This document shows positions 29,072 to 41,452 of a DNA stretch of 64,000 nucleotides, one piece after another. Where the stretch lies: positions 1 through 64,000 of the forward strand of contig JAIRYN010000056.1 of assembly GCA_031267575.1 (NCBI GenBank). The letters are read 5' to 3'. The translations under genes were made by a program, and so were the position numbers. The DNA comes from Synergistaceae bacterium (GTDB taxonomy: Bacteria > Synergistota > Synergistia > Synergistales > Aminobacteriaceae). The number at the start of each line of letters is the position of its first letter. The first letter of the stretch is position 1. The notes beneath the pieces are model-generated. The model was not told the origin of the DNA. It ran no database searches and was given only the letters and a program-made list of their open reading frames with translations.

Positions 29072-30013
29072 TTATTTTAGGTCTGTGGCAGAGACAACTT
29101 TTACTTCTGTTTTTGACCAATCGGAGATTTTTTCCCCGCCCAGAATACGGAACCCAACCTTGATCGCGTTGGCCGCCATCTCAGGCCCAAACTGATCCAC
29201 CGTGGCAAGCATTTTACCCTCTTTGATCAGTTCTTGACAGGCGCCAATATTGTCGAAACCGACGACTTGAACTTGCTCGGTCTTGCCAGCGGCCTCTATC
29301 GCGCGGACCACGCCCAGAGCCATGGAGTCATTGGCGCACATGACGCCCTGGACATCGGGGAACCGCGTCAGGAGGTTTGTCATGACCGTGTTCGCTTCTT
29401 CTGTCTCCCAGTGGGCCGTCGTGGACTCCAGGATCTGGAATTCGTAGTCCGCAACGCTCTTCATGAAACCGGCCTTACGTTGTTTCGCGTTGTCCGCACC
29501 AGGATTGCCTTCAATGATGATGACTTTCGCGCTCTTGCCCAACTTTTCCCCAAGGAAGTTGCCCACCAAGTAGGAACCTTCTTCGTTATCGGGGCCAACA
29601 AAAAGGAAGTTTTCAGGCAAGCCATTGTCCTTAAGGGCCTGCTTGTCCAGAGTGACATCGAAGTTGACGACCAGGATACCGGCATCCACGGCCTTCTTCA
29701 CCGACGGAACGAGGCCCACAGAGTCGGCTGGTGCCAGGATAATCATGTCCACCTTCTGGGATATGAAATTCTCCATGGCGTTGATCTGCGTGTCGATATC
29801 CGTTTCTGAGTTCATGCCTACGGGAATAAGTTCGAATGTGCCATCCTCTTGCGCGAATTTGCGAGCGCCTTCCTCCATTGTTTTGAAGAACTCGTTCGCC
29901 AATGATTTCATGACCAGTCCCACGACCGGTTTCTTCTCGGCTGCAAAAGCTACTCCGCCCAAACACATCACAAACATCACCAATAAAACCATAGCAATCA
30001 TTTTTCTCATCAT
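29072..30013 (-). CDS. rbsB: Ribose-type periplasmic sugar-binding protein
   Basis: Captures the sugar in the periplasm for the RbsAC importer. 313 residues. Signal peptide MRKMIAMVLLVMFVMCLGGVAFA, then a periplasmic-binding-protein type I fold: KPVVGLVMKSLANEFFKTMEEG, IILAPADSVGLVPSVKKA, VNFDV, IIEGNPGADNAKQRKAG and VMCANDSMALGVVRA. The start at 30013 (or the next ATG at 30010) is preferred: the signal peptide begins there and AAAGGAT lies 12 bases upstream. The frame is open for 19 further codons, but these are transposon-derived leader. First gene of the nucleoside cluster. Confidence 0.93.
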   Translation of the reverse strand: MMRKMIAMVLLVMFVMCLGGVAFAAEKKPVVGLVMKSLANEFFKTMEEGARKFAQEDGTFELIPVGMNSETDIDTQINAMENFISQKVDMIILAPADSVGLVPSVKKAVDAGILVVNFDVTLDKQALKDNGLPENFLFVGPDNEEGSYLVGNFLGEKLGKSAKVIIIEGNPGADNAKQRKAGFMKSVADYEFQILESTTAHWETEEANTVMTNLLTRFPDVQGVMCANDSMALGVVRAIEAAGKTEQVQVVGFDNIGACQELIKEGKMLATVDQFGPEMAANAIKVGFRILGGEKISDWSKTEVKVVSATDLK

Positions 30014-30200
30014 CGAAACCGATCCTTTCAGCGTACTAATACCTACTGATAACGAGTAGATACGTTTCACATAGTATTTCTTTGACTATGAAGCCAAAGA
30101 AAAAACTAAATCTCACAAAGCTCGCGGAAATACTCCACAAACGCCGTTGTAGTCCCGACTATCAGCTCGAATACCCTTTCGCGGCATAAATCACCTCCTC
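30014..30200 (-). mobile_element. TnpB-type transposon 3'-end relic forming the rbsB leader (copy C)
   Basis: Read on the minus strand: a piece of TnpB C-terminus (SRDYNGVCGVFPRAL), then the conserved right end with two hairpins (TTCTTTGGCT paired with AGTCAAAGAA, and CTACT paired with AGTAG) and ACGCTGAAAGGATCGG. It runs straight into the rbsB start. The TnpB piece now lies in a 24-codon frame (30187-30113) that has its own AGGAGGTG ribosome site. About 75% identical by eye to copies A and B at 39 and 40.7 kb. Confidence 0.8.
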
Positions 30201-30273
30201 TTCAACAGCTTATAACACGAGGCTTAAACGATTATTTTTTCTCTTAAAGTTATGGACACTCGCTTATTATATA

Positions 30274-30594
30274 TTGACATACTCCCACGACTAAAGTTGT
30301 AGGATTCTAAGATCGACAAAGACAGCCGACTGAAACCGGTCTTACGTCTTCTCCTTATAAGAGTGGATGCCCTCACTCTGAGAATATTTACAGCCACATT
30401 AATATCCCAGTCGTGTTCTGCCCCGCATCTCGTGTTGATAAGTCATAAAAGGAGTTTAACATAAAAGTAGACGTATGGCAAGAAACCAAATACAAAACAA
30501 ACGTCACCGTTGGTGGCGTTGCAATTTTCATCCAACGGCTGAGGCTGTTGGCTTTTTCATCGCTTTATCTCGCTTTATTTCGCTTTATCGTAAA
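30274..30594 (-). mobile_element. IS605-like deletion derivative, unit 1
   Basis: On the minus strand: a left-end segment with nested palindromes, then the last codons of a TnpB (CGAEHDWDINVAVNILRVRAST) and a decayed right-end hairpin (CCCACGACT with AGTTGTAGG). The transposase core is missing. Unit 2 has the same architecture, so both descend from one shortened element. Confidence 0.8.
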
Positions 30595-30637
30595 GAACGC
30601 ATGATGTTTAATGAAAGTTTTTCTTAAAATATTTTTT

Positions 30638-30949
30638 TTGACATACTCCCATGACTAAAGTCATGGGATTCTAAGATTAACAAAGACAGCCGATTGAAAC
30701 TGGTCTTACGTCTTCTCCTTTAAGGGTGGATGTAAAGGTGGATGCCCCCACTCTGAGAATATTTACAACTGCATTAATATCCCGGTCGTGTTCCGCCCCG
30801 CATCTCGCGTTGATAAGCCATAAAAAAAGTTTAATATAAAAGTAGACATATGACAAGAAATCAAATACAAAACAAACGCTACCATTAGCGGCGTTGCGAT
30901 TCTCATCTAATGGCTTCAGCCGTTGGCTTTCTCATCGCTTTATCGTAAA
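30638..30949 (-). mobile_element. IS605-like deletion derivative, unit 2
   Basis: Same layout as unit 1 but better preserved. The TnpB end reads RCGAEHDRDINAVVNILRVG and KGEDVRPVSIGCLC to a stop at 30677, followed by the classic right-end hairpin CCCATGACTTTAGTCATGGG. A 12-bp duplication adds FTST within the TnpB tail. The left end carries CGTTGGC-type palindromes shared with unit 1 and with 42.28-42.37 kb. Confidence 0.88.
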
Positions 30950-30976
30950 TTTTGTCTTTATTGGTCCACCATAGCA

Positions 30977-31024
30977 TATATATAGATATAGATATAGATA
31001 TAGATAGAGGTAGATAGATAAATA
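30977..31024. repeat. ATAGAT-type microsatellite
   Basis: AT and AGATAT hexamer repeats followed by AGATAGATA-type units. It marks the right edge of the transposon relic region. Confidence 0.85.
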
Positions 31025-31076
31025 AATAGATACTTTGCTAAGTGTCTATCTGTAGAAATTAATATTTAGCTCAATA

Positions 31077-31646
31077 CTATATGCTGACCTCTAGTGCCGC
31101 GATTAGTTTTACGGCAAAGTCGAGTAGTTCTTTTTCGGAAAGACTTTTTGTCTCCAGCGTCAAAGTTCTTTCTTTATCTAGAGAGACAGCCAGCGCCTGT
31201 CCCGTGACGTCGCCACACTCCAACACCGCGCGTTTTCCCGCGACGGTCAAGGTTTTGTAGGTCGAGGAGAAACCCAGTAGGCCCTCGTTCCCGGTGACCT
31301 CTCCCTCTGGAACGTAAAGGGTCCCTGGCCCAGATCCCTCCATTAGGTTGACCTCCACACCGGCGATAGGCGTCGTGCGGGTATAAACGCGGTTTGTCCA
31401 GCGTCCCAGTTCCTCTGACGTGGTCAAATGCGTAGTCTGCGCCTGGGAGCTATGCCATTCATCTAACACGTCGGGCAAAGGCACGGCCTCCGCAACCCGA
31501 CCGACCCCTAAAATGACTAGTCCCATCAGCAGTATTTCCATAAGCGAGTTTCGCGGTACGCGATTTTTTTTTGCCTCCTTTTTTATCCTGTCTGTTGTCC
31601 TGCTTTCCGATCTTTTCGTCTTTATGTTTATGGCAAAAACCTCCAT
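31077..31646 (-). CDS. Secreted or membrane-anchored hypothetical protein
   Basis: 189 residues, no family recognised. A basic N-terminal stretch (KTKRSESRTTDRIKKEAKKNR) precedes a hydrophobic segment, SLMEILLMGLVILGVGRV, ending in AEA, which looks like a signal peptide. The rest is a beta-rich hydrophilic domain (LDEWHSSQAQT, EVTGNEGLLGFSSTYKTLTV, ERTLTLETKSLSEKELLDF). The start is unsure: ATG 31541 would begin at the hydrophobic segment but the only good ribosome site (AAAGGAGG) lies too far upstream of it. Its spacer partner is the tmcAL gene on the same strand. Confidence 0.65.
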   Translation of the reverse strand: MEVFAINIKTKRSESRTTDRIKKEAKKNRVPRNSLMEILLMGLVILGVGRVAEAVPLPDVLDEWHSSQAQTTHLTTSEELGRWTNRVYTRTTPIAGVEVNLMEGSGPGTLYVPEGEVTGNEGLLGFSSTYKTLTVAGKRAVLECGDVTGQALAVSLDKERTLTLETKSLSEKELLDFAVKLIAALEVSI

Positions 31647-38918: not shown

Positions 38919-39104
38919 ACTTTCGGCTGTCTCCCTAACGAGGTTTGCACTTCTAAAACCTGTTCATGGAACGGAGTAATCAAGGATGTTGGAAACGCGA
39001 AAATTATTAAAGATGGGAAAATTGTTGTAGATCGGGACTACAACGGCGCTCGTGGAATATTTCTACGAGCTTTGCGAGATTCAGCTTTTTCTTTGACTGC
39101 ATAG
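38919..39104 (+). pseudogene. TnpB C-terminal remnant (copy A)
   Basis: About 60 codons of the C-terminus of a TnpB-type RNA-guided nuclease. The zinc-finger half reads VCTSKTCSWNG, then KIIKDGKIVVDRDYNGARGI with the last RuvC aspartate region (DRDYNGAR), and the end FLRALRDSAFSLTA to a TAG at 39102-39104. The second CxxC of the zinc finger is degraded and everything upstream is gone. The right end follows directly. Confidence 0.87.
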
Positions 39105-39173
39105 TCAAGGAAATACTATGCGAACTGTATCTACTACTTATAAGTAGGTATTAGTACGCTAAAAGGATCGGTT
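39085..39173 (+). mobile_element. Transposon right end forming the cca leader (copy A)
   Basis: The TnpB stop lies inside the first hairpin (TTCTTTGACT with AGTCAAGGAA). A second hairpin (CTACT ... AGTAG) and GTACGCTAAAAGGATCGG follow. In active TnpB elements this region encodes the omega-RNA scaffold. AAAGGAT is 15 bases before an ATG at 39182. Confidence 0.78.
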
Positions 39174-39227
39174 GTTGTAATATGGAGATTAGCAAGCCGA
39201 TAAAATCCTCGGAATTGTATTTCTCGG

Positions 39228-40631
39228 ATGGAACGTCACGTTCGTCTTTTGCGTGAGTTGCGACGCAGAGGGATCGCGAAAGCCTGGCTGGTGGGAGGAG
39301 TTGTTCGCGACTTCCTTCTGAACAAGAGCCCGGCAGATATTGATGTTGTCTGCGAGGAGTCCCAGGCGAAAACGATCATCGATAAACTCGGAGGTGCTGT
39401 GACGGGAAAGCCTCCTTTTTGCACCGTGAGTACGGTTTTGCCTATTCTCGACGAGAAAGGTTTTTCCCACAAATGGAACATCGAGATTACCCTTTTGACA
39501 GGGGGCTCCATTCAGAAGGACCTGGAACGCCGTGATTTTACGATCAACGCCATCGCGATGGACATCAATGGAAAAATGATTGATCCCTTCGATGGGGCCG
39601 CGGATATCCGTCGCCGTGTTCTCCGTCTTGTGCCCGCTTTGACGTTGCCCTACGAAGCCGACCCCATTCGCGTCGTGCGGCTGTTGCGCTTTGCCTGCGC
39701 ACTGGATTTTAGCGTCGACTCCATGACGGAGCTTTTGACGAAAAATTTCATCCGAGAACACCGAGGCGTATTGGCAAACGTTCCCCAAGAGCGATATGGG
39801 AAAGAATTTTTGAAGGGTTTCGCGTCGCGCCCCCTGGATTTTTTGTTGTCCCTCGAGGACTACGAATTATTGCCGGTGGTCTTGCCAGAGGTAGAAGCCA
39901 TGCGTGGGGTAGAACAACCCGCCATTTTCCACCCTGAGGGCGACGTGTTGGCGCACACCATTCGCGTGGTGGGCGAAGCCCAAAAGGAGATCCGAAAACA
40001 TCCCGAAAAACGTGACGTCGTACTTGCTCTCGCTGCTTTATTGCACGACGTTGGTAAGCCGCGTTCCGCGCGACCTCATCCTAAATACGACCGCGCTTGC
40101 TTTTTCGGCCATGAGAAAACGGGAGAGCTAATGGTTTGGGATATTTTAAGCAAATGGAGCATTCCGGGAAAAATTACGGCTCAGGTTACCGCTCTTGTTC
40201 GGCATCACATGATTCCAGGGGGGAATTTCACGGAGCGCACCTGTGTGAAATTGATCCGCAAAATAGGGGCGGAGACCGCGGAACAATTGTTTACCCTGGC
40301 GCTCTGCGACGCTAGAGGCACGCTGGGCACGGGAGACAATATCCTGGTCGCTCGGGAGCTTTTTGCCCAAGTTCACGATAACCTTTATCGGGCACAAGAC
40401 GCCTCTTTCAGACGGTGGCTTGACGGCAACGACGTCATGGATATCCTGAAAATTCAGCCCAGCCGCGAAGTCGGCCGAGTTCTGGAGGAGTTGGACGTCG
40501 CTGTTGGGGCAGGAGAGCTTCATAGCAGGGAAGAAGCCATCGAGTGGTTGAGACGGAAGTTCGGCCGAGAAACCAAAAGCGGACGTTGGGAAGGTTTGGA
40601 ACGTTTGTCAGGGACGGAAACTCGCTTGTGA
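39228..40631 (+). CDS. cca: CCA tRNA nucleotidyltransferase / poly(A) polymerase family with HD domain
   Basis: Adds or repairs the 3' CCA end of tRNA. 467 residues. Head domain: WLVGGVVRDFLLNKSPADIDVV with the GG and DxD (D37, D39) catalytic motifs, then RRDFTINAIAMD and DPFDGAADIRRRVLR. Template region DPIRVVRLLRFAC. A C-terminal HD domain (LLHDVGKP, HHMIPGG) adds phosphohydrolase potential. The start is weakly supported: no good ribosome site precedes it, and a 24-codon upstream frame (39182-39256) overlaps it, so translation may be coupled. Confidence 0.92.
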   Translation: MERHVRLLRELRRRGIAKAWLVGGVVRDFLLNKSPADIDVVCEESQAKTIIDKLGGAVTGKPPFCTVSTVLPILDEKGFSHKWNIEITLLTGGSIQKDLERRDFTINAIAMDINGKMIDPFDGAADIRRRVLRLVPALTLPYEADPIRVVRLLRFACALDFSVDSMTELLTKNFIREHRGVLANVPQERYGKEFLKGFASRPLDFLLSLEDYELLPVVLPEVEAMRGVEQPAIFHPEGDVLAHTIRVVGEAQKEIRKHPEKRDVVLALAALLHDVGKPRSARPHPKYDRACFFGHEKTGELMVWDILSKWSIPGKITAQVTALVRHHMIPGGNFTERTCVKLIRKIGAETAEQLFTLALCDARGTLGTGDNILVARELFAQVHDNLYRAQDASFRRWLDGNDVMDILKIQPSREVGRVLEELDVAVGAGELHSREEAIEWLRRKFGRETKSGRWEGLERLSGTETRL

Positions 40632-40656: not shown

Positions 40657-40776
40657 TTCAAAATATTTCTACGAGTTTTGCGAGATTCAGCTTTTTCTTT
40701 GGCTTTATAGTCGAAGAAATACTATGCGAAACGTATCTACTCGTTATGAGTAGGATTAGTACGCTGAAAGGATTGG
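40657..40776 (+). mobile_element. Transposon right-end relic forming the tenA leader (copy B)
   Basis: Shortened copy: FYEFCEIQLFLWL-type sequence is the broken TnpB end (stop at 40708-40710 in the TnpB frame), then hairpins TTCTTTGGCT/AGTCGAAGAA and CTACTC/GAGTAG, and ACGCTGAAAGGATTGG. The tenA ATG lies 8 bases past it. Confidence 0.8.
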
Positions 40777-40783
40777 CAATATC

Positions 40784-41452
40784 ATGAATGATATTTTTTC
40801 CGCCAAGGTTTTCGAAAAAATTCAACCGATCATGAAGCGGATTTATGAGCATCCATTTAATATGGAGCTGGCCAAGGGAACACTTTCGAGGGATCGTTTT
40901 TGTTTTTACATGCAGCAGGATAGCCTTTACCTTCTCCACTTCGCCCGCGCTCTGGCCTTCGCGGGCAGTAGGTCCCTTCAGGAGCGAAGGATTAGCGCGC
41001 TTTTAACGGCGGCACAAGGCGCGCTCCTGGCTGAACGCGCCTTGCACGAATACTATTTCGCGGAGTTCGGGGTTACACGGAGCGCAAAGGAAAATAGGGC
41101 TTGTTTGGGTTATACGTCGCTCATTTTGTCGACGGTTTCATTAGGGTCGTTGGGAGAAGCGCTTGCTGTACTCTTGCCCTGTTTCTGGATTTACCGCGAG
41201 GTGGGCAACCATATCCTCCATATTGCTGCGTCTCCGAACCCCTACGACAAATGGATACAAATGTACTCCGACAAGGAATTTTCCGACGGGGTGGATCGTT
41301 TTATCGATCTAGTGGATATTGTAGCCGGCGAAGCCGCGGAGCAGGAACGGTTGCTCATGGAAGATCGCTTCATCACCGCATCACATTTCGAGTACTATTT
41401 CTGGGATGAGGCCTATCGCATGAAAATAATGGATTGCGCCAGCGACATTTGA
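40784..41452 (+). CDS. tenA: TenA-family thiaminase II / aminopyrimidine aminohydrolase
   Basis: By family knowledge salvages thiamin breakdown products by hydrolysing aminopyrimidines. 222 residues. The catalytic set is present: D46 (MQQDSLYL), C133 (LLPCFWIYREVG) and E209 (YFWDEAYRM). LARALAFAGSR-type helix and HEYYFAEFG also match. No TPP riboswitch is seen upstream; the leader is a transposon relic. No thi genes adjoin it. Confidence 0.9.
   Translation: MNDIFSAKVFEKIQPIMKRIYEHPFNMELAKGTLSRDRFCFYMQQDSLYLLHFARALAFAGSRSLQERRISALLTAAQGALLAERALHEYYFAEFGVTRSAKENRACLGYTSLILSTVSLGSLGEALAVLLPCFWIYREVGNHILHIAASPNPYDKWIQMYSDKEFSDGVDRFIDLVDIVAGEAAEQERLLMEDRFITASHFEYYFWDEAYRMKIMDCASDI

Follow-up and report, generated by a model that had tools for sequence, protein, structure and literature searches.

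An IS607-type transposon right end as the probable source of the translation leader of rbsB and of about 50 genes in a Synergistaceae bacterium

The closest described relatives of the element reported here are IS607, IS1535 and ISC1926, which share with it a serine-recombinase TnpA carrying an N-terminal MerR-type DNA-binding domain, a TnpB, and GG at both the right terminus and the host junction (PMC6188088). IS607 inserts at (G)GG (PMC6188088), and flanking motifs of IS607 TnpB have been identified as AGGAG or GAGGG (PMC11061315). Compared as sequences, these published targets and motifs match Shine–Dalgarno (SD) sequences. Our literature search found this link stated in no paper, and word searches of the main text of PMC11061315 and of PMC10711439 returned neither start codons nor ribosomes.

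We analysed a window of 64,000 nucleotides (the whole stretch of DNA under study) from a Synergistaceae genome, in which the leader of an rbsB-like gene carries a transposon right end. The features of this locus are as follows.

29072-30013, minus strand: rbsB-like periplasmic sugar-binding protein (PF13407, E 9e-64)
30019-30122, minus strand: right-end core unit forming the rbsB leader, 104 nt
30023-30029, minus strand: GAAAGGA, putative SD supplied by the element (AAAGGA 96-100% conserved in the 55 copies of subfamily A, defined below)
30039-30063, minus strand: hairpin 2, GTATCTACT / AGTAGGTAT, arms 30063-30055 and 30047-30039
30077-30102, minus strand: hairpin 1, TTTCTTTGGCT / AGTCAAAGAAA, arms 30102-30092 and 30087-30077
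30019-31087, minus strand: degraded IS607-type element 5' of rbsB, from left to right end, 1069 bp
31088-31093, minus strand: host flank TAGAGG left of the element, an SD-like remnant with the GG junction

The first-pass annotation had described the relic of a TnpB transposon right end leading straight into rbsB, with two preserved hairpins and ACGCTGAAAGGATCGG as ribosome site. This description holds: the core (30122-30019) ends 5 nt before the rbsB start codon at 30013, both hairpins are preserved (30102-30077 and 30063-30039), and GAAAGGA is present at 30029-30023, where it may serve as the ribosome site. The element is longer than the interval first proposed, 30014-30110, with about 1.07 kb between its ends: the left-end match TCAGCATATAGTATTGAGCTAAATATTAATTT, reaching 31087, adjoins host GG, and the right end is at 30019. 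The 19-nt tail of the unit had 0 matches in dinucleotide shuffles.

Upstream of the element, the stop codon of an ORF at 31077-31646 (minus strand), which has no Pfam match, comes from the left end of the element. When the flanks are rejoined without the element, this ORF (31646-31077) would read in frame into rbsB, so that the site may have been rearranged. Nested within the element, at 30274-30944, are two direct copies of another repeat beginning with TTGACATACTCCCACGACTAAAGTTGTAGGATTCTAAG; they are 86-90% identical, about 370 nt apart, and look like miniature elements of the IS200/IS605 type.

Its sequence identifies the unit as the right end of a transposon of the IS607 type, encoding a serine-recombinase TnpA and TnpB. 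In many copies the end of a TnpB, TSKTCSWNGVIKDVGNAKIIKDGKIVVDRDYNGARGIFLRALRDSAFSL followed by the stop, is coded 5' of the hairpins, and relatives in the same family, Synergistales bacterium MS502-76 and PG1894_187 among them, carry intact elements with TnpA, TnpB and a matching right end. TnpA in a relative's intact element is a serine recombinase with an N-terminal MerR-type helix-turn-helix (PF00239 and PF00376), and a TnpA-like frame also exists in one own-genome copy (L047/L077). Downstream of TnpA lies a TnpB with PF07282, PF01385 and PF12323 (L067), of which relics persist in own-genome copies. It is this combination of TnpA and TnpB domains that places the element in the IS607 type, and its right ends finish in GG as in that family. 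Filing under IS200/IS605 was considered and rejected, the TnpA being of the PF00239 and not of the Y1 type; Y1 transposases do occur in the genome, but the elements themselves yielded none. Internal deletions have left many own-genome copies as miniature versions. TnpB of this type survives there as fragments only, two of which lie at contig ends, and present-day activity is therefore uncertain. By sequence, the nearest solved structure to the intact TnpB of L067 (2132-3226) is 'TnpB-like protein L79' (9b0l); other chains of TnpB or Cas12f-like type follow at a clear distance.

Two more copies lie in the window, on the plus strand.

38937-39095, plus strand: TnpB C-terminal relic 5' of cca, with TSKTCSWNGVIK and DRDYNGARGIFLRALRDSAFSL
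39068-39171, plus strand: right-end core unit 5' of cca
39182-39256, plus strand: ORF of 24 codons, 10 nt past this unit and overlapping the cca start
39228-40631, plus strand: cca, tRNA nucleotidyltransferase / poly A polymerase family (PF01743 and HD domain)
40674-40776, plus strand: right-end core unit 5' of tenA
40784-41452, plus strand: tenA (PF03070), start codon 7 nt past the unit

The repetition of the rbsB unit before both genes, as proposed at first, is thus real, with a reservation for cca, whose long ORF (start 39228) begins 57 nt past the unit. With only the 24-codon frame at 10 nt, the cca copy makes the weakest case in the window. The tenA orthologues of relatives have no unit, and several show an ordinary SD directly before the start.

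Genome-wide, a covariance model built from 27 right ends (cut-off E < 0.01) recovered about 64 copies in the 2.76 Mb of the own genome and fewer in each of seven relatives; weak copies may be missing from all these counts, and the model was trained on ends with AAAGGAT and may favour copies of that kind. Two subfamilies can be distinguished by their terminal sequence, which is GAAAGGATCGG or nearly so in A (55 copies) and AAAGAATCGG or similar in B (9 copies). Gene starts were assigned by a mechanical rule: the ORF had to be 70 aa or longer, to begin no more than 30 nt away and not to extend 200 nt upstream. This rule places 48 of the 55 copies of A at a gene start, against 11.5-12.5% of controls (11.5% of all positions, about 12% of GG sites). 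When short genes are added by eye, namely rpmH, a LysW-like gene and two further short frames, the count rises to 52/55, all just before a start codon and in the orientation of the gene. The genome-wide tabulation of distances to the next start that the first-pass annotation had proposed gives a median of 8 nt between right end and start in subfamily A; the scatter far from genes or in random orientation that it had named as counter-evidence was not what was found. Most downstream proteins match Pfam families, many of them from near residue 1. The genes concerned include rplQ, rpmE, rpmH, cysS, pfkA, htpG, etfA, flgH and terD, as well as a phd antitoxin and several aminotransferases and transporters, and have no common pathway.

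Among copies of the relatives, 17/27 are at start codons. Many of these are nearly identical and presumably young. The proportion exceeds that of G-rich sites in the window (12-25%) but stays below the 52/55 of the more diverged own-genome copies. L002 and L003, among the youngest own-genome copies, are not at starts.

Two genera have a unit directly before the start of htpG, L122 in the own genome and L062 in G028; this suggests that the gene was hit independently in each. In G028, an open frame within the right end, starting MRKYLVAITKYKYAKRIG, continues in frame into the downstream gene at three sites (L062, L070, L071): htpG, a glutamate dehydrogenase-like gene and a third gene. The counterpart ATG in the own genome opens a 9-codon frame, MRNVSTRYK followed by a stop. 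Beyond these genomes, a pattern scan for the tail gave 0 matches over a set of GTDB genomes from which the own genome may be absent, and plasmids and phages yielded only distant TnpBs, 31-36% identical. One of them, in Vibrio phage F100 (L155, OZ195714.1), ends 72 nt before thyA in the same orientation, a native SD sitting after the end of the TnpB copy; in the Trichormus and Microcoleus phages, the copies lack the start-site pattern.

The host junctions point to how the copies came to lie where they do. For 23 elements the left end was identified; about 18 of these join host sequence at GG. The host sequence up to the junction is often SD-like: TATTAGGAGG at rpmH, TTTTGGAGG, GGTGGAGG, TAGAGG at rbsB and, in a relative, TTTAGAGG. 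Past the right end, host sequence resumes with a spacer and then the start codon. In genes of the window, GG natively precedes the start by a median of 8, equal to the median of the spacer after the right end. Flanks rejoined without the element give plausible SD-spacer-start sequences, and no sister strain with an empty site was found. As the sequences read, the simplest history would be insertion after the GG of an SD. The placement before start codons would then be explained in part by insertion after GG, often within an SD, and not by reuse alone.

The question is whether such targeting accounts for everything. Were the element simply to prefer SDs, the leaders would be neutral remains and the SD-like tail a requirement of the recombinase or of the guide RNA. 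Several facts fit this explanation: the young copies of relatives are already at starts in 17/27 cases, IS607 TnpA targets (G)GG, the TnpB motifs of the family are AGGAG or GAGGG, and mobile copies end in AAAGGATCGG too. The state of the old copies, however, argues against it. AAAGGA is 96-100% conserved in subfamily A, at least as well as the best-kept positions of the remaining tail, and in L010, the lone A copy where AAAGAA stands instead, GGAGGG follows immediately as an alternative SD. Erosion is one-sided and spares the SD end: at least 13 copies have no 5' side, some being reduced to their last 35-60 nt, whereas a single match consists of a 5' half without the 3' end, and that copy is not at a gene start. 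Moreover, the share at starts is higher in the older own-genome set than in relatives.

A natural comparison for the SD hypothesis is provided by subfamily B (L049, L050, L113-L117, L119 and L121; about 350 bp), which carries AAAGAAT in place of AAAGGAT. These copies have the same purine-GG flanks as subfamily A and lack the SD. Only one of the nine (L115) is at a real gene start, and there an AAGAAGG belonging to the gene itself follows the unit. The difference between 52/55 and 1/9 is marked (Fisher p = 3e-7) and persists when the mechanical rule only is applied (48/55 against 3/9, p = 0.0014). Together, the conservation of AAAGGA, the backup SD of L010, the one-sided erosion and the contrast with subfamily B suggest that the acquired SD serves the gene and has been retained. 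We therefore consider it unlikely that insertion bias is the whole explanation. Bias and retention probably both contribute, and we infer that translation uses the new SD and that it is kept by selection beyond the bias. The distance from SD to start, 9-15 nt, is on the long side; a 16S 3'-end pattern was absent from the assembly.

The conservation of the hairpins has to be read differently. Stem 1 had been said to be held by wobble changes between copies, and pairing is indeed maintained: across 22 own-genome copies, 97.5% of the cells of stems 1 and 2 pair, against 42-52% in controls with the partner slid. Other lineages have quite different stems in place of 1 and 2, with pairing still intact; these cross-lineage stems were compared by hand, MAFFT misaligning hairpin 2. 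This conservation does not support a leader function of the hairpins, as the stems covary also in the intact elements of relatives and several leaders have no hairpin 1, keeping just hairpin 2 and the SD. Since it is also seen in intact mobile elements, stem conservation most likely reflects the element's own RNA. From its position after tnpB and from published IS607 work, we infer that the right-end region corresponds to the omega-RNA scaffold, the guide RNA of TnpB. The unit matches no known Rfam family; searched up to E 5, L067, L062 and L108 matched neither RAGATH-18 nor any other Rfam model.

It is very improbable that the units are a dispersed cis-regulatory RNA, riboswitch-like or protein-binding, that runs a regulon and resembles a transposon only secondarily. 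Two covarying hairpins, a possible closing helix able to pair with the SD region and the 5' position on the sense strand would suit such a leader, but TnpB coding relics continue into the unit, the genes have no pathway in common, Rfam holds no match, leaders survive without hairpin 1, and an equivalent RNA is present in intact mobile elements. Least probable of all is that the units are kept for an outward promoter and not for a ribosome site, for although TTGACT or TTGGCT and TACTAT stand about 15-16 nt apart in many copies, a sigma-70 scan gives none at rbsB, and copies without hairpin 1 have lost the -35-like part while keeping the SD end at starts.

We thus favour the following history, in which the element both targets and restores translation signals. 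An IS607-type element would recombine at GG, the GG of a gene's SD being a frequent target, and sense-oriented copies would so come to separate the SD from the start codon, an event that alone would silence the gene. The right end, GAAAGGATCGG, would however bring in another SD, placed about 9-15 nt ahead of the original start codon, and the gene would stay translated. Decay would then strip copies of their coding part and left end, often of hairpin 1 as well, and the last 35-100 nt would be retained because they are now the ribosome site of the gene. We regard this model as a whole as likely: about 50 genes, including rbsB, tenA and possibly cca, would have a transposon-derived leader that keeps them translated. 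In the initial proposal of a TnpB right end reused as an SD-carrying leader, the core reading stands; hairpin conservation as a sign of leader function is not supported, and the IS607 type and the targeting are additions.

If the inferred steps hold, a bacterial transposon uses a site where its own damage can be repaired, and one transposon end has become the translation start region of about 50 genes, ribosomal protein and essential genes included. If true, this would also offer a biological meaning for AGGAG, the SD-like motif of IS607 TnpB nucleases. More speculatively, the G-rich flanking motifs of many IS607 TnpBs (AGGAG, GAGGG) might in effect be the SD, such elements then being RNA-guided parasites of translation starts whose right ends are selected to rebuild the SD and which have seeded ribosome sites across many bacteria; we hold this wider view to be possible but doubtful. 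In practice, caution is warranted, because the guide-RNA scaffolds of such elements can pose as 5' leaders or riboswitch candidates.

In comparison with known systems, the locus goes beyond the IS607 family as described in PMC6188088, where a right end that would rebuild an SD, the location of most copies before starts and large numbers of surviving leaders made of a solo right end do not appear. IS607 TnpB nucleases of the RAGATH-18 type (ISFba1; PMC11061315) likewise combine an IS607 TnpB with a structured right-end RNA, and their motif AGGAG or GAGGG resembles the SD flanks seen here; the right-end RNA differs, that of the present element matching no Rfam family. IS200/IS605 elements and their short non-coding derivatives also have TnpB, a guide RNA from the right end and short non-coding forms, but their TnpA is of the Y1 type, in contrast to the serine recombinase and GG junction found here. 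Finally, IStrons, which join a group I intron to an IS (PMC4227781), offer a parallel in limiting the harm of their own insertion; there this is done by RNA splicing, whereas here, with no intron, it would be the translation signal that is rebuilt.
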